In this document: positions 16,078 to 23,919 of the stretch, one piece after another | How positions within the stretch are numbered: position 1 is the stretch's first letter | Layout: each line of letters starts with the position of its first letter | Origin: Streptomyces sp. ICC1 | GTDB taxonomy: Bacteria > Actinomycetota > Actinomycetes > Streptomycetales > Streptomycetaceae | Direction: 5' to 3' | NCBI RefSeq assembly: GCF_003287935.1 | Contig: NZ_CP030287.1 | Coordinates: 7,309,793 to 7,373,792 of the forward strand | DNA: 64,000 nt | The notes under the pieces: generated by a model | The model's input: only the letters and a program-made list of their open reading frames with translations | What the model was told of the DNA's origin: nothing | Databases searched by the model: none | Program-made: the position numbers and the translations under genes

Positions 16078-17459
16078 TAGTGCTTTGTTAGCTGGTCTTG
16101 TCACGTTGGGTGTCTGGTAGTTCGCTGGTTGGTATGAGGGCTGGGGAGCTTGCTGCGGTTCGGGTCCGGTTAGAGGAGTTCGCCTCCGAGGTGTTCGCGC
16201 CGCTGGTGCGGCGGGACCAGCGTGAGAAGGGCTTGCTCTATGTGCGGGGGCTGTTGCTGGACGGCCGGCGGAAGTCGATGCAGCCGATGGCCGAACGCCT
16301 CGGCATCGATCACCAGCGGTTGCAGCAGTTCATGACGTCCTCGCCCTGGCCGGTCGAGGACGTGAGAGCCCGGCTCGCATGGCGGGCCGTGGCCGCGGTG
16401 CGGCCCGAGGTGTGGGTCGTGGACGACACCGGCTTCCCCAAGGACGGCACCGCCTCGCCCGGGGTGGCCCGCCAGTACTCGGGCACCCTGGGCAAGGTCG
16501 GCAACTGTCAGATCGGCGTCAGCGTCCACGCCGCCACGGACACGGCCTCCTGCCCGCTGTCCTGGCGCCTGTTCCTACCTGCGAGCTGGGACAGCCCGGA
16601 AGCCGAGGCCCGCAGGCGAGCCTGCAAGATTCCCGATACCGAGCACCACCGCGCCAAGTGGCAGCTCGCGCTGGACATGCTCGATGAACTCGACGGCATC
16701 GCTCTGCGGCCCGCCGCACTGGTCGCGGACACCGGCTACGGCGCGAACGCGGACTTCCGCCACGGCCTCGAAGACCGGGGACTGGCCTACATCCTGCAGG
16801 TGAAAGTCGAGATGACCGCCCACGGCGAGGAGGCCGAACCACACCAGCCCGCATACGGCGGACTGGGGCCCAGGCCGCTGCCCCGTTACCGCACCAGGCC
16901 GGTCTCCTTGCGCGACCATGTGCTGGCCGCCGGCCGACGGGCGGGACACACGCTGACCTGGCGCAAGGGATCGAAAGCGGCGATGAGCTCGCACTTCGTG
17001 CTCCTGCGAGTCCGCCTCGCGGGCCGCCGGCCCAAACCCGCCGCCGACGGGACGATCCCCCTCACCTGGCTGATCGCGCAGTGGCCCGAAGGCGAGAGGG
17101 AACCGGTGAAGTACTGGATCTCGAACCTGCCCGCCGACATTCCCGCCAAGGACCTGGTACGTCTCGCCAAGACCCGCTGGCGGATTGAGCACGACTACCG
17201 CGAACTGAAGACCGTCCTGGGCCTGGACCACTTCGAGGGCCGCTCCTTCACCGGCTGGCACCGCCACGTCACCCTCGTCACCGCCGCCCACCTCTTCCTC
17301 ACCGAACAGCGGAGGACCCCAAAAGTCCCTGCCAGGGCCTGCCCCTCTACCAGGCCCTGGACCTCCTCCACCACCTCATCGCCACCTGGACCGGCACCTG
17401 CCCCACCTGCCGACAACCCATCCCAAGACAGGCCTACAACAACACGTAACAAAGCACTA
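16078..17459 (+). mobile_element. IS701-family insertion sequence, 1382 bp
   Basis: The element starts TAGTGCTTTGTTA and ends with its exact inverse, giving 13-bp perfect terminal repeats. It is flanked by CTAG at 16074-16077 and 17460-17463, the 4-bp YTAR-type target duplication expected for IS701. One transposase gene fills it. Confidence 0.92.
16134..17449 (+). pseudogene. IS701-family DDE transposase with late frameshift
   Basis: The reading frame from ATG 16134 encodes a DDE transposase: first Asp in VWVVDDTGFPKDG, second in ALVADTGYG, and the Glu in WRIEHDYRELK. Around 17320-17335 (a CCCCAAAAG run) the frame shifts. The natural C-terminus (LPLYQALDLLHH, then CPTCRQPIP and a TAA at 17447-17449 inside the right repeat) is found in another frame, while the original frame runs past the element. 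This could be decay, a sequencing error or slippage. Catalytic residues all precede the shift. Confidence 0.85.
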
Positions 17460-17837
17460 CTAGGGCCTGGTCCGGCAGGACGACACATCCTTGACGACCG
17501 CCTCGCAGGCTACAAGGCCCGCCGCGAGCTGTGCTGGGGTCGCGGCGCCGCTCACGTCGAGCTGCTGCACCGCGGCCCGCGCTGCGGACCGAGTCACGAA
17601 GTTGAAGCAGTCCCCGTGCGTCAGCACGATGTCGGCCGCCGCTCTGACCTTGACCGACCTCACCCCGTCGTCCGAATCCAGCTTCGACCACTGGCCGAAG
17701 AGATCCTCAGCTGCTTGCCGGACCTCTGCGCAGGACGGCTCGTCCCGGCTACCCGTCCGGTCCCCCACCACGAATCCGCTCCCGGCCAGGACTACGGCAC
17801 CAGCCGTGGCCATGGTGAGCGCCCACCCTCGTCTCAT
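17460..17837 (-). CDS. Small secreted or membrane-anchored protein, unknown
   Basis: A 125-aa protein with an N-terminal hydrophobic segment (residues 9-25, ALTMATAGAVVLAGSGF) that looks like a signal or anchor. Four cysteines follow (SCAEV, DCFNF, ACEAV, SCRTR), suggesting two disulfides. No family is recognised. Its stop codon lies inside the CTAG target duplication of the IS701 element, so the present C-terminus could be native or created by the insertion. GTG/ATG context: ATG at 17837. Confidence 0.55.
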   Translation of the reverse strand: MRRGWALTMATAGAVVLAGSGFVVGDRTGSRDEPSCAEVRQAAEDLFGQWSKLDSDDGVRSVKVRAAADIVLTHGDCFNFVTRSAARAAVQQLDVSGAATPAQLAAGLVACEAVVKDVSSCRTRP

Positions 17838-17848
17838 GGGTGATCACC

Positions 17849-17916
17849 CTAGGGCCTGTCCGACCATTCGAGTCAGGTCTGGCCCGATCCGCCGCGAATT
17901 ATCAGACAGGTCCTAG
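17849..17916. repeat. 68-bp mini-element with IS-like terminal repeats
   Basis: It begins CTAGGGCCTGTCCGAC and ends with the near-inverse ATCAGACAGGTCCTAG (13 of 16 positions). The same terminal sequence, GTCAGACAGGTTCTAG, closes the IS5-type remnant at 20985-21000. It looks like an internally deleted, non-autonomous derivative (MITE) of that IS. Confidence 0.6.
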
Positions 17917-17998
17917 CTGCGCACCGCAGAGCGTCACGCAACGAGAGGGATCGTCAGCACGGTGTCCCGTCCAAGAACGTAACCGCACAGGGCCCGGG

Positions 17999-18208
17999 TC
18001 ACTCGAGCATTTGGAGGATCGTCAGCGTGAGGGTCGCGGCGAGGGTAAGGGTGCCGCCGAAGGCGATCGCCGCCCGGCCGATCGCCTGCGAGTGGCCAGC
18101 CCCGTCCCGGTGGGCCAGGTGACCCGCCGCCCAGCCCACCATCAGCGCGATGACTACGACGTTGGCCGCTGCGAGCAGGGTGACGGCCACCTTGGTCGAA
18201 GTGTTCAT
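17999..18208 (-). CDS. Two-TM small membrane protein divergent from the NACHT gene
   Basis: A 69-aa protein: hydrophobic helix 1 at residues 6-27 (VAVTLLAAANVVVIALMVGWAAG), a short His/Gly-rich polar loop, and helix 2 at about 47-66 (AAIAFGGTLTLAATLTLTIL). The frame is open further upstream, but ATG 18208 starts directly before helix 1. No family is recognised. It is transcribed away from the NACHT gene across a 117-bp spacer containing a nested operator, so co-regulation is likely. Small two-helix proteins are common effectors or inhibitors in defence loci, but that role here is inference. Confidence 0.55.
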   Translation of the reverse strand: MNTSTKVAVTLLAAANVVVIALMVGWAAGHLAHRDGAGHSQAIGRAAIAFGGTLTLAATLTLTILQMLE

Positions 18209-18265
18209 GAGGAGTCCCCATTTCCTGGTGCTGGGTGCTGACAGGGTGGACACTGCTCTCGAAAG

Positions 18266-18299
18266 GGTTCGCCGTGGTTCGGCTGAACCTTCCTGAACC
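18266..18299. promoter_or_regulatory. Nested double-dyad operator in the NACHT divergent spacer
   Basis: Four half-sites form one symmetric array: GGTTC (18266), GGTTC (18276), GAACC (18285), GAACC (18295), centred at 18282/18283. Same-direction half-sites are 10 bp apart, one helical turn, so two dimers could bind the same face. It lies 27 bp before the NACHT start and 58 bp from the small gene start. Confidence 0.7.
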
Positions 18300-18325
18300 G
18301 AAGCGGACCGTGTGCCGGGGGCGAC

Positions 18326-20743
18326 GTGGCTCAGCAGGACGACTCCGAGGCCGCCGACGACACCGCCACGGCGACCGGACGTGACGCACTCGTCCTGCTA
18401 CGCCAGTTACTGGAGCGGGGGCGGGCGACCCACAAGCTGACGAAGACCCAGTTGGTGGCCCGGACCGGACTGGGTAAGACCACCGTGATCCAGGCGTTCA
18501 GCATGAGTGCCCCGCCTCCCAGCGCGATCACGGTCGCGAAGCTGGCCGACTGTCTCAAGCTGAACCGGGACCGGCTCCTCGAACTGCACGCGAACATCAC
18601 CGTGATGGTGCCGCCTCCGGTGGCCCCGGTCGCCGACGGCACCGGACCGGCCGGAGTGCCCCACCCTGACAGCACGTCGCCGGGAGGCGGCGGCACCGGC
18701 ACCGGCACCGGTGACAACTGGACCGACGAGGCAGCGGCCCGGATTGCCAGCCAGGTCCTCGCCGACGAGACCGAACACGCCTCCCGACTGCTGGGACCCG
18801 GCGGACACCGGATCGACCTGGTGTTCCGGTGCGTCCCCGAGCTGGCCAACAACGCGGCCGGCGCCCAAGAGCGGGGGAACCTGCGCGATGCCCAGGCGTT
18901 CTACCTGGCGCTCCGGCCGGCCCGTCTGGTGATCACCGGCGAGCCGGGCGCCGGTAAGACCCTGCTGGCCATCCACCTGGTTCTGGCGCTGCTCTCGGAC
19001 CGGACCCGGTCCCGGGCCGATCCGGTCCCGGTGCGCTTCTCGTTGGCGGGCTGGAGCCAGGGGCTCCCGCTCCAGCGGTGGCTGGCCGAACAGGTGGCCG
19101 ACCGCTTCGCCGCCGAGGGCATCACCCGACGCCGGGCCGTTGCCCTGGTCAAGGGCCGCCGGATCCTTCCGGTGCTCGACGGCCTGGACGAGATGGACGC
19201 GGCCGACACCCCGCTCGCCCGCAGCCGCGCCTACCAGGTGCTGGAGGAGCTCAACTCCTACCAGGACGCACGGGGCAGCGCACCGGCCGTGCTCACCTGC
19301 CGCACCGAACTCTACGAACGGCTGACCCGACGCCAGGTGCGGGTGCGGGACGCGGCCCGCGTCCGCATCGAGGCGGTGTCCGCCATCAAGGCGGTGGCCT
19401 ACCTCACCGACCGCACCGCCGCCCCCCAGCGCTGGCAACCGGTACTCAGCCACCTGGCGGAATCTGAACCGGGCGTCCTGGCCGCCGTGTTGAACACCCC
19501 ATGGCGGCTGAACCTGGCAGCCACCGTCTACGAGCAGCGCGATGCCGAACTCGCCTACCGACGCGACCCGGCCGACCTGCTCGCCTTCACCTCCGCTGAG
19601 GAGGCGGGTGATCACCTGCTCGGGCTCTACCTCTCCGCAGCCTCGGCCTCGCACCCCACCGCTCCCGACCGCTACCCGGTCGAGGCCACCCGCCGCTGGC
19701 TCGGTGTACTGGCTGCCGGACCGGCCGCCGGGGCGCCGAAGACCGGGACGGACCTGTACCTGCACGAGCTCTGGCAGCTTATGCCCCGGCGGGTGCGGAT
19801 CGCCGAGCTGCTGCTGGTCCTGCTGTGGGTCGCGGTCCTGTGCGGGTGGGTGCAGCTTGCGGAGCCCAAGGAGAGCGACGTATGGACGGTCTACACCGTG
19901 CTGCTCGCTGGGCTGCTCTGGCTGCGCGCCTGGAAGCGCCGTGTCGTGCCGCGCGCCGCACAGCTCGGGCGGCTGGGCACCGTCGCTGGACTGCGGCTGA
20001 TGGGACGGCGCATCGTCGGAGCGGGCACGGCGGGCTTCCTGATCGGCTTCCTCGCCGCGGTCGCCGTGACCCTGGTCTGGGGCGTCGTCGACCTGGTGAT
20101 GCTCTCCCTCGACCCGTTCAAACAGCTGGCGCTCCTGGTGGGCTGCACCGCGATCTTCGCGGGCGTGAGTCTTCCGGCCGGAATCCTCTTCGGTGTACTG
20201 AGTGCTCTGACAGGTCCGGTCACCTGGGAGCGCACGTCCGCGACGCCGACCGACTTCGGCCGGTGGGTCCGGGCGGAGAAATGGCGCAAGCTGACCTACG
20301 GCCGTTCGGCAGGCACGATCGTTGAGCCCCGCGCCGACCCGCACCATGCGATCCGCCACGACCTGCTGGTCGGGTTCGGCCTCATCCCCATGATGGTCCT
20401 GTCCGGTGGACTGGTGCTCACCCAGGTGGTCCAAATCAGCCTCGACTCCTGGACACTGACGCCCGGGGCGGTCGCCGTGTGCCTGGTCCTCGGCCTCCTG
20501 CTCGGCTTGTACTTCCTCACCGGGGCAGGCCGGCGCTACCTGGTGTTCCTGCTCTGCGCGCGCGGACAACTCCCCTGGCGGCTGGGCCGGTTCCTGCGCT
20601 GGGCCTACGGAGCGGGCCTGCTCCGGGTGTCAGGATCGGCCTACCAGTTCCGCCACCGGGAGCTTCAGGAGTGGCTCGGTGCGCACGGTCCGCGCCAACC
20701 CGGCAGCACCGCGACCGACCGGGCGAGTCGTGCTCATACATAG
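18326..20743 (+). CDS. HTH-NACHT NTPase with multi-pass C-terminal membrane domain
   Basis: An 805-aa STAND NTPase. Residues 20-90 look like a Cro/XRE-type HTH (TKTQLVARTGLGKTTVIQAF). A Gly/Thr-rich linker (105-130) follows. The NACHT core has Walker A GEPGAGKT at 205-212, the Walker B LPVLDGLDEMD at 281-291 and a TCRTELYE sensor. From about residue 490, six or seven hydrophobic segments follow (AELLLVLLWVAVL, AGFLIGFLAAVAVTLVW, GLIPMMVLSGGLVL, AVCLVLGLLLGLYFL and others). The end is soluble (YQFRHRELQEWL). Codon 28 is TTA, suggesting bldA-dependent translation. GTG at 18326 follows GGGGGCG. NACHT proteins include phage sensors; the target of this one is unknown. Confidence 0.9.
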   Translation: MAQQDDSEAADDTATATGRDALVLLRQLLERGRATHKLTKTQLVARTGLGKTTVIQAFSMSAPPPSAITVAKLADCLKLNRDRLLELHANITVMVPPPVAPVADGTGPAGVPHPDSTSPGGGGTGTGTGDNWTDEAAARIASQVLADETEHASRLLGPGGHRIDLVFRCVPELANNAAGAQERGNLRDAQAFYLALRPARLVITGEPGAGKTLLAIHLVLALLSDRTRSRADPVPVRFSLAGWSQGLPLQRWLAEQVADRFAAEGITRRRAVALVKGRRILPVLDGLDEMDAADTPLARSRAYQVLEELNSYQDARGSAPAVLTCRTELYERLTRRQVRVRDAARVRIEAVSAIKAVAYLTDRTAAPQRWQPVLSHLAESEPGVLAAVLNTPWRLNLAATVYEQRDAELAYRRDPADLLAFTSAEEAGDHLLGLYLSAASASHPTAPDRYPVEATRRWLGVLAAGPAAGAPKTGTDLYLHELWQLMPRRVRIAELLLVLLWVAVLCGWVQLAEPKESDVWTVYTVLLAGLLWLRAWKRRVVPRAAQLGRLGTVAGLRLMGRRIVGAGTAGFLIGFLAAVAVTLVWGVVDLVMLSLDPFKQLALLVGCTAIFAGVSLPAGILFGVLSALTGPVTWERTSATPTDFGRWVRAEKWRKLTYGRSAGTIVEPRADPHHAIRHDLLVGFGLIPMMVLSGGLVLTQVVQISLDSWTLTPGAVAVCLVLGLLLGLYFLTGAGRRYLVFLLCARGQLPWRLGRFLRWAYGAGLLRVSGSAYQFRHRELQEWLGAHGPRQPGSTATDRASRAHT

Positions 20744-20791
20744 TGACCAGCACCTCGGAAGCGTTCAGTTGCGCCTCGATTAGCGGCTCGC

Positions 20792-21000
20792 CCCTCGGGC
20801 ACCGCCCGCCCAACTTCGACCGCACCGCCGACCGCGACCGTAACGTCGTCGAACACTGCTTCCTCCGTCTCAAGCAGTTCCGTGCCATCGCCACGCGCTT
20901 CGACAAACTCGCCACCCGCTACCGCACCCGCTTCGTGCTGGCCTCATTCATCCTCTGGCTCCGAGAACCACCAACTGGCTATTTGTCAGACAGGTTCTAG
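20792..21000 (+). pseudogene. IS5-type transposase C-terminal remnant with right IS end
   Basis: About 70 codons matching the end of a Streptomyces IS5-like DDE transposase: RNVVEHCFLRLKQFRAIATRFDKLA with the last catalytic Glu, then LWLREPP. The right terminal repeat GTCAGACAGGTTCTAG completes it at 20985-21000. The first two thirds of the transposase are missing. It starts about 50 bp after the NACHT stop and ends on CTAG at the stop codon of the next gene. Confidence 0.8.
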
Positions 21001-21731
21001 CCCCGCGCGGACTTCAGGAGCTGGCCGAACGACCTCTCCTCGAAGAGCCAGGCGTACCGGGCGCCGGTGATCTGAGTGCCGTTGATGACGACCGTGGGAG
21101 TGCCGGGCCCGCGCGGGTCATCGCCGCCGGCTGCCTCGTACGCCTTCTCCGACGCCATGACGAAGTCGTTGTACTTCATCGTCGCCACCGCGGAGTCGAA
21201 GGCCTCGCTCCGCAGACTGGGGACCTGGTCGGCCAGGTACAGCAGGGAATTCGTGGTGTACCCGCCCGCGCGCTCGCTCTTGGCCATGTTCTCCATCAGC
21301 ACCGTGTGGTACTCGGTGAAAAGGCCGGCGTCGAGCGCTGCGCGCAGCGCGTTGACCGCCCTTTTCGATCCGTCGCCGCCCACCCGGTCGTCCCTGAAGG
21401 ACGCGAAGGTGTACTCGGTCTTGGCCTCGCGGCGCAGCGTCATCGCGCGGAGCACCGGCGCTCCGCCCGCCTCGAACTCGTCCACGTACGGGCAGCGCGG
21501 ATCCTCGTACAGCCGGACCGTGGTTGCCGCTGCCGGGTCGCCCACCACGATCGTGGTGCCGTCCGCGGCCAGCGTCTCCGGCAGCTCGCCGACCGCCGCG
21601 TACGACACCGGCCGAGGTGTGCTTGCGCTCTTGGCGTCCGTGGACTGCGCCGTCTGCGCGCAGCCGGCCGTCAAGACGACGGCGATGGCGGCCACCGCCG
21701 ACGCGACAGCCAGCCCTCGTATGCTTCTCAC
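20997..21731 (-). CDS. DsbA-like thioredoxin-fold lipoprotein lacking the resolving cysteine
   Basis: A 244-aa exported lipoprotein with signal sequence and lipobox VLTAGC (Cys about 24). It has a thioredoxin/DsbA-type fold with EDPRCPYVDEFE where CPxC would be expected, so only the first active-site cysteine is present, and the cis-Pro loop GTPTVVING. Monothiol members may act as isomerase or chaperone rather than oxidase. The GTG start (21731) is only 3 bp from the CTAG where the adjacent IS5-type element begins, and the stop codon overlaps the IS remnant on the other side. The gene is therefore squeezed between two insertions and has lost its native leader. Confidence 0.8.
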   Translation of the reverse strand: MRSIRGLAVASAVAAIAVVLTAGCAQTAQSTDAKSASTPRPVSYAAVGELPETLAADGTTIVVGDPAAATTVRLYEDPRCPYVDEFEAGGAPVLRAMTLRREAKTEYTFASFRDDRVGGDGSKRAVNALRAALDAGLFTEYHTVLMENMAKSERAGGYTTNSLLYLADQVPSLRSEAFDSAVATMKYNDFVMASEKAYEAAGGDDPRGPGTPTVVINGTQITGARYAWLFEERSFGQLLKSARG

Positions 21732-21738
21732 CTGCTAG

Positions 21739-22718
21739 GGCGTGTATTGAGTCGTGATCGGTTTGCCGGATCTGCCCTCGCTTCGAGGGCAGATCCGGTA
21801 GTCCGGTACACATGACGCGTGTGCAACTGACGGACGACGAGTGGGGGTTCGTCGAGCCGTATCTGCCGGTCGGTGAGTACGGCCCGTATCCAAAGCGGCT
21901 ACGGCAGCAGTTCGAGGGTGTGATCTGGAAGTTCCGTACGGGAGCGCAGTGGCGGGAGATGCCGGGCCGGTTCGGCGCCTGGTCCACCGTGCACAACCGG
22001 TTCAGGCAGTGGCGGGACGCCGGAGTTTTCGAGGCGCTGCTGGAGGGGCTGATAGCCGAGGCGGCCGGGCGGGGCAGGGTGGATATGTCGCTGGTCAGCG
22101 TGGACTCCACGACGGTCCGCGCCCATCACGACGCGGCCGGAATGCGCCTGGAGGAGGACGTTTTGGACGCTCTGGAAAAGGCCGCCGTCGAGGCGGAGGC
22201 GGCCCGGCAAAAGGGGGCGGCGCGGCGGAACAAGACGGACACGGCGACGTCGCTGATCCCGGCCGGGCCGAACGGCGGCGCGTCCGGCGACGGCGCAAGC
22301 TCCGCTTGAACGCCGCTCTGCTCGGGCGCTCACGAGGCGGACAGACCAGCAAGATCCACCTGGCCGCCGACCGCCGCTGTCGGCCCCTGGCCCTGATCCT
22401 GACCGCAGGGCAGGCCGCGGACAGCCCGCAGTTCATCCCCGTGCTCAAGAAGGTACGGGTCCGCGGGCCCGTCGGCCGTCCCCGCACCCGGCCCGGCGCG
22501 GTCGCCGGGGACAAGGCCTACTCGTCCCGCGGCAACCGCGCCTACCTGCGCAAACGCCGCATCAAGGCAGTCATCCCGGAGAAGAAGGACCAGGCATCCA
22601 ACCGGAAGAACAAAGGCCGCAGAGGGGCCGGCCGGTCACCCACGACGCCGACCTCTACAAGGAGCGGAACACCGTCGAGCGCCTGATCAACAAGCTGAAA
22701 GCCTGGCGAGGCATCGCC
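21739..22718 (+). mobile_element. IS5-family element (two-frame transposase), right end lost
   Basis: The left end starts at GGCGTGTATTGAGTC directly after CTAG (21735-21738). A perfect 15-bp hairpin (21766-21780 / 21784-21798, CCGGATCTGCCCTCG arms) lies just before the transposase start, the kind of structure that shields an IS from outside transcription. The right end is missing, cut by the recombinase gene near 22718. Confidence 0.75.
21812..22718 (+). pseudogene. IS5-family (IS427-like) transposase, frameshifted and truncated
   Basis: The N-terminal frame (21812-22309) has the DUF4096-like start LTDDEWGFVEPYLP, and VDSTTVRAHHD with the first Asp. The next frame, from about 22280, carries LGRSRGGQTSKIHLAAD and the second Asp in VAGDKAYSS. 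A third frame, after about 22625, gives THDADLYKERNTVERLINKLKAWRG with the Glu. The first shift may be the programmed one of this IS group. The second is extra, and the last about 30 residues are cut off at the recombinase junction. Confidence 0.8.
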
Positions 22719-23919
22719 CAAGGCGGCCAGGACCTGCTGTTCGACGAAGGCGTCCACGCAGGCGGAGTTGAGGAGTTGGCAGGTCTTGTCCGCGCCGTAG
22801 TTGGCGACGTCGCGGGAGCACAGGTATTCGGGCAGGGCCATGCCGCGTTGGGTGTGGTAGCGCACGCTCATGCGCCGGTTGCAGCGTCCGCAGTGCACCA
22901 GTCCGGCGGCCAGTGCGGGCCCGTCCCGCACCGCGCCCATGGCTTCGGCGCGGGCACGGTTGGCCGCCAGCTTCGCCTCGTTGGCCTCGAACTGGGCGAC
23001 GGTGATGTAGGCGGGCAGGACATCGGGGATCATCACGTGCCATCCGTCCCGGGAGCGGACGACCCGTCCGGTGCTGGGCCGGGTCCTCGCGGCGCGGGTC
23101 GACCCGGCGCCGCCCATAGGCGTAGATGCCGGCGTAGGCGGGATTGTGCAGCAGGGTCTGCAGGGTCATCCGGTTCGGTCGTCGCCATTCCAGGGTGCCC
23201 TTATCCGGCCCCTCGCGCAGGCGGATGCCCAACTGGATCTCGTTCTCGACCAGGTAGCGCAGTACTGCGTGCAGTGTGCCCAGGCGCTCGAACTGCGCGA
23301 ATATGAGCCGGATCACGGTCTGGACCTGCTCGTCCGGGTCAAGGGCCACCTGACCGGAGGTGCGTCGGACGTAGCCACTGGGCAGGGCGAAGGCCAGCTC
23401 GCCGCGGCGGGCCTTGTTCAGACGCCCGCTCCACATCCGTTGCTTGATCAGGTGGAGTTCGGCCTCGCTCATCGTGCCCTTGAGTCCCAGCAGCAGCCGG
23501 TCGTTGTAGTCGGCCGGGTCATAGACGCCGTCGGTGTCCGCCAGGACCGCGCCCGACATAGCGCACAGTTCGATCAGCTGGTACCAGTCCTTGCCGGAGC
23601 GGGCCAGCCGGGACATCTCGATGCCCAGCACCAGTCCGACATGGTCCAGCCCGATCTCGGTGACCAGACGCTGGAAGCCGGTGCGGGCGACCGCGCTGGA
23701 CCCCGACTTGCCCAGGTCCTCGTCGATCACCAGGATCCGGTCCGCCTGCCAACCCAACGCGAGCGCCCGGTCCACCAGGGCGTACTGCAACCGGGCCGAC
23801 TCCTGGTGGCCAAGCACCTGCTGTCGGGTGGACTGGCGGATGTAGATCAGCGCCAGCCGCTGGAGGTGGCGGTCATCGATCTTGCTGCCGGACCGTTCCC
23901 ACGGCATCACTGAACTCAT
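22719..23919 (-). pseudogene. Large serine recombinase, frameshifted and C-truncated
   Basis: The resolvase domain begins near residue 23 with the nucleophile in IYIRQSTRQQV, followed by the GIEMSRLARSGKDW and DTDGVYDP motifs. The recombinase domain (ALPSGYVRR, LLHNPAYAGIYAYG) follows. Near 23090 the frame shifts and continues as IPDVLPAYITVAQFEANEAKLAANRA and a zinc ribbon HCGRCNRRMSVRY/LCSRD. The C-terminus stops where IS5 sequence begins (about 22718). Such recombinases integrate or excise mobile DNA. This copy is probably inactive unless the shift is a sequencing error. Confidence 0.85.

Follow-up and report, generated by a model that had tools for sequence, protein, structure and literature searches.

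Bacterial proteins related to animal NLRs and to the R proteins of plants are commonly interpreted as receptors to which a killing enzyme is fused. In Streptomyces, STAND and XRE proteins have also been described as regulators of small genes. AfsR, as outlined in PMC10936776, is a SARP–NOD–TPR STAND regulator that acts on a small target gene, afsS, by way of direct repeats one helical turn apart; WhiJ9, in the account of PMC10294661, is an XRE protein that activates its target, iosA, and represses itself, with direct repeats in the shared intergenic region. The 2.8-kb block studied here lies in a 64,000-nucleotide stretch of Streptomyces DNA (the window) and encodes an 805-amino-acid NACHT protein and a divergent 69-amino-acid two-helix membrane protein (Table 1). 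The pair is one example of an apparently undescribed, widespread Streptomyces two-gene system; no paper describing an HTH–STAND/microprotein pair was recognised in the open-licence PMC literature. We consider it probable that the window holds one branch of a modular HTH–STAND/operator/membrane-microprotein system. The big protein is most likely a ligand-switched, autoregulating transcription factor controlling a membrane-acting microprotein, with DNA binding, direction of control and trigger all predicted.

Table 1. Positions of the features of the locus in the window.
Feature	Position	Strand	Basis or remark
68-bp imperfect palindrome, MITE-like	17849..17916	.	self-inverted alignment across all 68 bp
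Two-gene cassette	17991..20776	.	blastn match to Streptomyces sp. M41 L002 5664-8436, 85.4% DNA identity
Small gene, 69-aa two-helix membrane protein	17999..18208	-	ATG at 18208; constant partner of HTH-NTPase proteins
Operator GTTC-N6-GTTC-N4-GAAC-N6-GAAC (candidate)	18267..18298	.	unique genome site; kept upstream of small gene elsewhere
HTH-NACHT-membrane STAND protein, 805 aa	18326..20743	+	Pfam NACHT; near full-length relatives
XRE-type HTH, aa 18-92	18377..18601	+	alignment A3 with 39 other partner proteins; profile against PDB
NACHT nucleotide-binding domain, aa 198-362	18917..19411	+	Walker A 18938-18961; Walker B about 19163-19198
Membrane insertion, aa about 487-731, six long helices	19784..20518	+	AlphaFold and hydropathy
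Winged-helix domain, C-terminal half, aa 734-787, ends YQFRHRELQEWL	20525..20686	+	helix-helix-strand-strand-helix in AlphaFold model
Transposase 3' remnant with terminal repeat	20779..21000	+	DDE_Tnp_1_2, E 2.3e-5, below Pfam cut-off

The 805-aa protein starts at a GTG codon, with an N-terminus, MAQQ(D/N)D, common to four relatives; relatives P0001–P0003 are 94%, 93% and 72% identical to it over 97–100% of its length. Its HTH–NACHT–membrane architecture, part of the original prediction, stands. Pfam NACHT matched above its curated cut-off (E = 8.1e-10, 39.2 bits against 26.7), and the Walker motifs are intact, with GEPGAGKT as Walker A (aa 205–212), LPVLDGLDEMD at aa 281–291, and no variation at G210, K211, D285, D288, E289 or D291 across 61 aligned rows. 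The protein has the NBD–HD1–WHD fold of NLR proteins, and residues 130–798 of its AlphaFold model align with NLRC4 94–475; a PDB sequence search with the NTPase gave no match. In PADLOC the NTPase matched within its P-loop region alone, with mad8 as the best model (E = 2e-5), and no named anti-phage NACHT model reached its cut-off (EruA, 17.2 bits against 1000). AlphaFold places the helices of the membrane insertion at 487–512, 517–537, 553–592, 597–629, 672–706 and 713–731, and hydropathy marks five hydrophobic segments. Because the C-terminal half of the winged-helix domain is found after this insertion, the membrane part appears to split that domain. As judged by sequence comparison, the N-terminal XRE-like HTH is recognisable through its family, while the match of the segment itself falls short of the Pfam threshold (HTH_31, E = 0.012, 16.4 bits against a cut-off of 27): HTH_31 was matched at E ≤ 0.01 by 43 of the 48 members of the partner HTH set, the A3 profile retrieves HTH proteins from PDB (best E = 2.2e-8), and identity to the 39 other aligned HTHs is mostly 36–51% (extremes 26% and 87%). 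The AlphaFold model has five helices in this segment, at low confidence (block means 37–66).

The facing two-helix protein also fared well, being predicted as a helical hairpin (3–34/39–68) at a pLDDT of 92.6. Its near-invariant residues lie mostly in or around a conserved loop, LARxDGAxYPxALxRAxxAF (A28 to R45 of 69). PADLOC returned no match to the small protein, DUF397 did not match it or four relatives, and for five members PHROGs gave no match at E < 0.05 and Pfam nothing above cut-off; on these empty searches, identity with a phage holin or a known family was dropped. A search with the single sequence matched 77 of 392 Streptomyces genomes (E ≤ 1e-3), and a small-gene profile matched 76 of 199, with a patchy distribution.

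The pairing is kept in many genomes and on plasmids; the refuting condition attached to the original prediction, homologues that never adjoin the small gene, did not come true. When the whole window was compared with the 14.4-kb M41 locus, the cassette was the single blastn match, the flanks being unrelated, and dN/dS between the two was 0.47 for the small gene and 0.28 for the NTPase. A gene adjoining the small gene carries the same XRE-type HTH in 53 of the 60 other Streptomyces contexts fetched, this partner being an ORF at least 500 aa long in 46 of the 60; no HTH was found alongside seven small genes, and six more adjoin a short or broken partner ORF in which the HTH stretch is still detectable, counts that are not independent because close copies are among the contexts (one class supplies eight loci) and paired loci were the source of the profiles. 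Small genes lacking an adjoining partner could be regulated in trans. All 12 plasmid loci opened hold the pair, and SAP1, the 94-kb plasmid of S. avermitilis MA-4680, has a native one (SAVERM_RS00150/SAVERM_RS40900), whose big protein falls in the class that has no membrane helices. The plasmid loci were found through searches with two big proteins; plasmid tblastn with three small proteins gave no match, and proteins of this kind are probably hidden by the low-complexity filter. On contigs longer than 6.5 Mb, 18 of 22 places fell in the outer fifths (P = 7.5e-5; counted by hand, five being close copies).

What lies behind the HTH varies. Some partners have a P-loop NTPase and Ank/TPR-like repeats, others NACHT (in part with LRR) or NB-ARC–TPR, and in the window protein NACHT is joined by a membrane domain that interrupts the winged-helix domain. 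The commonest partner class matched STAND-type Pfam models solely below their cut-offs (in L071, AAA_16 at 24.1 bits against 32.6 and nSTAND_NTPase5 at 20.5 against 34). HTH, microprotein and operator are constant across loci, and HTH and microprotein co-evolve (r = 0.69; 0 of 2,000 permutations as high). Hydropathy found no TM helix in 46 of 48 partner proteins, the exceptions being those of the window and M41, so the system does not centre on a membrane pore in the NTPase; what recurs at the membrane is the small protein, and what recurs as output domain in the big protein is the HTH. The window locus has the defining features of the family: an HTH of the A3 clade, a small protein of the A2 family no more than 600 bp away and a GTTC/GAAC operator between them, with the A2 and A3 alignments containing the window's own sequences. 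In a class-wide sample the small-protein profile matched 21 of 296 genomes (E ≤ 1e-6), of which 11 lie outside Streptomyces, and an HTH partner was present at one of 12 loci fetched there (10 genomes), suggesting that the complete system occurs almost exclusively in Streptomyces. The Kitasatospora protein P0003 is a possible addition, known from the big protein alone. HTH–NACHT relatives L149–L153 lack this HTH clade, the small gene and the full operator (L149 has one half-site pair), so HTH–NACHT alone does not predict the pair; L154 has only a weak HTH match. Among 211 flanking ORFs from 46 loci (at least 90 codons, GC3-filtered, so that small or odd genes could escape), there was no third conserved gene: just two families recur in three loci or more, one in five loci of a single class and the other in three loci, 2.6–4.0 kb off.

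The shared operator foreseen between the divergent genes proved to be a conserved sequence, present upstream of the small gene at other loci in the general pattern GTTC-N6-GTTC-N(3–16)-GAAC-N6-GAAC. The 9.03-Mb genome holds a single site of this pattern, and the reversed control 0. An exact half-site pair is missing from 12 of 61 upstream regions; nine of these have a pair with a single mismatch, and L063, L069 and L112 have none even with one mismatch. Genus-wide, 15 of 46 operator matches lie away from the pair as far as seen in the 10 inspected (L156, L157, L159–L161, L163–L166 and L168), which have no partner in the fetched stretch; G339, G124, G354, G409:C3 and G109 make up the uninspected five.

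From the pairing, geometry, operator, co-evolution and domain build seen directly here, we infer a mechanism in which the XRE-type HTH occupies the slot where other STAND proteins hold an effector. The HTH would bind the four half-sites between the genes, through which the big protein would control both the gene that encodes it and the divergent small gene. At rest it would hold both silent; autorepression is suggested by the candidate operator lying 27 bp ahead of the big gene's own start codon, and the predicted self-regulation survives as autoregulation on this positional ground. A triggered C-terminal sensor would cause the STAND core to oligomerise, aligning the HTHs head to tail on the tandem half-sites, which follow each other in 10-bp steps along one DNA face, and turning on the small gene. 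The microprotein would then form a hairpin in the membrane, with the conserved, positively charged loop probably on the inside, and bring about growth stop, depolarisation or membrane remodelling; abortive infection through membrane damage is a possible role. In the activation of NLR proteins it is the winged-helix domain that moves. In the window branch the sensor itself may be the membrane domain within it; the protein would then be a transcription factor tethered to the membrane, able perhaps to sense damage to the envelope, for example by phage.

Of the competing readings, the least improbable, still well short of even chances, is a regulator of development or metabolism resembling AfsR/AfsS or WhiJ/IosA, reading an internal signal while the microprotein adjusts the membrane in growth or sporulation. 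Streptomyces does have STAND and XRE regulators that act on a small target gene (PMC10936776, PMC10294661), but the patchiness of the small gene, the location on chromosome arms, the plasmid copies and the exchange of sensor modules are the behaviour of accessory genes. A somewhat less likely arrangement is toxin–antitoxin-like: the HTH–STAND protein would repress a toxic membrane microprotein, and infection would lift repression, leading to abortive infection. This agrees with the divergent orientation of the genes around an operator that lies in both control regions, with accessory loci often on arms and also on plasmids, and with the small two-helix membrane build, which is known among toxins. 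However, orphan small genes and those beside broken partners are hard to square with a strong toxin, and the seven without an adjoining HTH speak weakly against a type II toxin–antitoxin identity; TAnnnT boxes are also few ahead of the small gene, although rare in GC-rich DNA anyway. The HTH stretch does persist at the six broken-partner loci, and a paralogue could act in trans. It is a little more doubtful still that the small protein serves as a membrane anchor or inhibitor, keeping the HTH–STAND protein at the membrane or off DNA until triggered: the conserved loop and the co-evolution with the HTH would suit it, but the window's big protein already has a membrane domain and would need no anchor, and the shared operator suggests that the small gene is the regulated output. 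Chance neighbourhood in an IS-rich region, despite the IS701, transposase and recombinase pieces around the locus, is contradicted by pair, geometry and operator being kept in unrelated settings and has next to no probability.

The mobile setting originally proposed also stands. The idea of an IS-bounded unit survives in part: over their last 19 bp the right-hand remnant and the 68-bp element agree at 17 positions. The left end is a whole palindrome, however, and the right end what remains of a transposase; the M41 block begins 75 bp past the left element and ends at the right remnant. A composite transposon was dropped on these grounds, and mobilisation of the block by the two ends is not supported.

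One constant regulator-plus-microprotein chassis is joined here to both NACHT and NB-ARC receptor types, and receptor output apparently runs through DNA binding. The locus also gives a first genetic context to a family of 'hypothetical proteins' of about 65–75 aa in many Streptomyces genomes; the operator offers a handle for direct testing, and S. avermitilis MA-4680 is a named strain with a native pair. More speculatively, and on balance unlikely, the chassis of HTH, microprotein and operator could be a 'transcriptional NLR' platform on Streptomyces chromosomes and plasmids, with swappable NLR-type modules (NACHT with or without LRR, NB-ARC–TPR, nSTAND-like with Ank/TPR repeats and membrane-spliced NACHT). 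Infection would then be answered by a membrane executioner microprotein, not a receptor-fused enzyme, and the window's membrane-spliced winged-helix domain would convert envelope damage straight into DNA binding.

Set against described systems, the locus shares with AfsR/AfsS, as far as PMC10936776 outlines it, an N-terminal DNA-binding domain on a STAND NTPase, a C-terminal sensor and, as predicted here, a small gene controlled by way of direct repeats one helical turn apart. Unlike there, the domain is an XRE HTH and not a SARP (neither Pfam nor NCBIfam lists a SARP/BTA domain for the 805-aa protein), the genes are divergent, the half-sites form inverted pairs and the microprotein is a hairpin in the membrane. 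With WhiJ9/IosA it shares an XRE HTH, direct repeats in a common intergenic region and, by prediction, a target across that region that is activated while the regulator represses itself; in the available text of PMC10294661, however, WhiJ works with the DUF397 protein BldB, an NTPase is not described, and IosA is cytoplasmic. A Streptomyces family of 'NACHT domain-containing proteins', mostly 650–740 aa, has NACHT, a membrane insertion and a C-terminal YQFRHRELQDWL part at 33–47% identity but not this HTH, which an N-terminal hydrophobic segment replaces in six of seven viewed, the other beginning at the core. SLATT and other two-TM conflict-system effectors, described in PMC7159879, are likewise small two-helix membrane partners of NTPase-based systems, whereas the small protein here has no Pfam match above cut-off. 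Finally, bNACHT and other bacterial NLR-related anti-phage proteins have the same NACHT NTPase, found in one class of the present family, in some members with LRR; unlike them, this family has a predicted DNA-binding HTH in the output slot and usually an adjoining second, membrane-protein gene.

The original prediction of a STAND NTPase with an N-terminal HTH, a NACHT core and membrane helices, facing a small two-TM gene, was confirmed in the window, which spans 7.31–7.37 Mb of a 9.03-Mb one-contig genome, assigned to the genus Streptomyces on the basis of relatives. The two start codons lie 117 bp apart, and no second match to the NTPase was detected in its own genome at E ≤ 1e-3.

Features of the HTH–NACHT/small-gene locus and its surroundings (window coordinates)
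Feature	Position	Strand	Length	Remark
IS701-family transposase	16098–17843			near the locus
Small-protein ORF	17999–18208	-	69 aa	
NTPase ORF	18326–20743	+	805 aa	
Thioredoxin_4 (DsbA-like) protein	20997–21731	-		directly after transposase remnant
IS5-type transposase fragment	21812–22309			near the locus
Serine recombinase	22687–23919			near the locus

The block 17991–20776 is shared with Streptomyces sp. M41 (85.4% identity over 2788 columns), with no match to M41 on either flank; in M41 the flank carries a gene for a Replic_Relax protein. Both genes appear, from dN/dS between the two copies, to be under purifying selection (0.28 for the NTPase, 0.47 for the small gene), and the intergenic region agrees in 104 of 119 columns. 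Three relatives cover 97–100% of the NTPase, HTH included: P0001 (Streptomyces sp. NPDC085929, 94% identical), P0002 (S. nojiriensis, 93%) and P0003 (Kitasatospora sp. NPDC051853, 72%). Small-protein relatives were found in NPDC085929 (90% identical) and S. vinaceus (86%), and equal longest contigs (24840 and 305037) for the relatives of both proteins suggest that these are the same contigs.

The pairing of the small protein with the HTH-bearing big protein is conserved. The small protein matched 77 of 392 Streptomyces genomes as a single-sequence query and 76 of 199 as a 50-row profile (both E ≤ 1e-3). Among 60 contexts fetched from the stronger single-sequence matches, roughly by score and leaving aside some second copies and that of the window itself, 46 had an ORF of at least 500 aa starting nearby on the opposite strand. 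Seven of the other 14 carried the same HTH in an ORF that was short, broken or codirectional (L060, L068, L083, L084, L086, L094 and L110), and in the remaining seven of the 60 no HTH partner was found (L063, L069, L075, L089, L097, L102 and L112). Searching with the HTH profile (E ≤ 1e-10) gave 49 places, spread over 44 of 199 genomes, 41 of them within 600 bp of a small gene (40 divergent; median gap between profile matches, 147 bp), and 31 of 38 small-gene places (E ≤ 1e-15) had the HTH within 600 bp; many loci in these counts had also contributed to the profiles, and one class includes eight loci that are close copies of each other. Weaker small-protein relatives outside Streptomyces (L182–L192) had no HTH partner and possibly have other partners or are chance matches.

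Plasmid records found with two big proteins, and thus independently of the small-protein query, gave the same pairing. All 12 loci opened among 24 listed matches (H20–24, H26, H28–30, H32, H33 and H38) had a divergent annotated gene whose product matched the small-protein profile (E ≤ 2e-18); an exact half-site pair lay between the genes in eight, including four with the full operator site. A native pair, SAVERM_RS40900/SAVERM_RS00150, resides on S. avermitilis plasmid SAP1 (L197; NC_004719.1, 34022–37012). Anecdotally, the pair on an S. microflavus plasmid (L205; NZ_CP109321.1) adjoins a gene annotated as Shedu anti-phage system protein SduA domain-containing protein, and another plasmid copy adjoins DUF4231.

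The intergenic region carries GTTC-N6-GTTC and, inverted, GAAC-N6-GAAC, 27 bp from the NTPase start codon and 58 bp from that of the small gene. Across 61 upstream regions (the window, M41 and 59 others, leaving out L098, whose small gene was misplaced in the first search), an exact half-site pair lay within 130 bp in 49 (after shuffling: average 0.59, maximum 3), nine of the other 12 had a pair with a single mismatch, and 21 had the full site (none in 300 shuffle rounds). The window's genome has a single copy of the full pattern; 37 of the 392 Streptomyces genomes searched contain it, and none contains its reversed control. Of 46 distinct full sites, 27 lie at small genes matched by the single-sequence search; 14 beyond these were inspected, four being near an HTH and/or small gene (L155, inside the gene just behind the HTH; L158; L162; L167). 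The other ten are four-half-site sequences whose fetched stretch contained neither the small gene nor this clade's HTH (L156 (G409:C2), L157, L159–L161, L163–L166 and L168), and L156 and L157 have additional half-sites at 10-bp steps. The 10-bp step places the half-sites of one arm on one DNA face, which would suit head-to-tail binding by an oligomer.

Clustering of 48 big proteins (the window, M41 and 46 others) on the part behind residue 130 gave four classes. Class 1 (n = 30) typically has the motifs GxSSTGKTR...NEAQH; in single scans of three members, AAA_16 and nSTAND_NTPase5 came out below cut-off, two members had ankyrin/TPR-like repeats and L115 gave no match at all. Class 2 (n = 13) has NACHT, some with LRR; class 3 (n = 3) combines TPR arrays with NB-ARC (above cut-off in L061 and L091, below in L062); and class 4, the window and M41, has NACHT with membrane helices, found by hydropathy in this class only. 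The HTH and small-protein trees are based on few columns and leave many forks unresolved; their main groups agree, and starred branches of the small-protein tree require at least four changes of the first class. These changes are interpreted here as swapping of NTPase modules on a conserved chassis. Pairwise HTH and small-protein distances correlated at 0.685 (n = 40), and at 0.716 within class 1 alone (n = 28), each above all 2000 permutations.

The small protein was modelled as a confident helical hairpin; its inter-helix loop has conserved residues and is net positive, which makes a cytoplasmic position of the loop probable under the positive-inside rule. For the NTPase, the model (pLDDT 73, pTM 0.68) matches NOD2, NLRC4 and NLRP3, with NLRC4 residues 94–475 aligning to 130–798 and last elements helix-helix-strand-strand-helix (end YQFRHRELQEWL); the membrane helices (about 487–731) are thus predicted to interrupt the winged-helix domain. 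The next-closest relatives are mostly 650–740 aa (33–47% identity), with alignments starting mostly at about residue 130–138. They probably share this insertion, since the C-terminal motif and hydrophobic middle are common to them. In six of seven viewed, an N-terminal hydrophobic segment replaces the HTH, and one begins at the core; in the window's branch, therefore, an HTH takes the place of the N-terminus normally seen in a common type of Streptomyces NACHT protein. At L083 (G186:C106:36000-48400), a window-type NACHT gene without the clade's HTH (product ending in YQYRHREFQHWL) is directly followed by a half-site pair, the small gene and a 1004-aa ORF that carries the HTH; the three genes share one strand. 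At L097 (G093:C1:7866000-7876000), where no HTH was found, a half-site pair and the small gene are directly preceded on the same strand by a similar HTH-less NACHT gene. The window's HTH–NACHT–membrane fusion could plausibly have arisen from such adjacency, and these arrangements are possible intermediates.

On contigs above 6.5 Mb, the outer fifths hold 18 of 22 contexts (P = 7.5e-5; counted by hand), or 13 of 17 without five close copies near an end. This accessory distribution, with plasmids and exchanged sensors, is compatible with defence and also with other adaptive roles. The proposed self-regulating defence system is supported in part: autoregulation by the big protein is likely, and an immune role for the pair is possible.

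The pair is a conserved two-gene system built on STAND regulators; searches of an open-licence library found no paper on such an HTH-STAND/microprotein system. The XRE protein WhiJ9 uses direct repeats, activates its neighbour and represses itself (PMC10294661), and the STAND protein AfsR uses direct repeats and has a small target gene (PMC10936776). Together they suggest a model in which the autoregulated big protein would, upon a ligand switch, activate the small gene, activation being somewhat more likely than repression.
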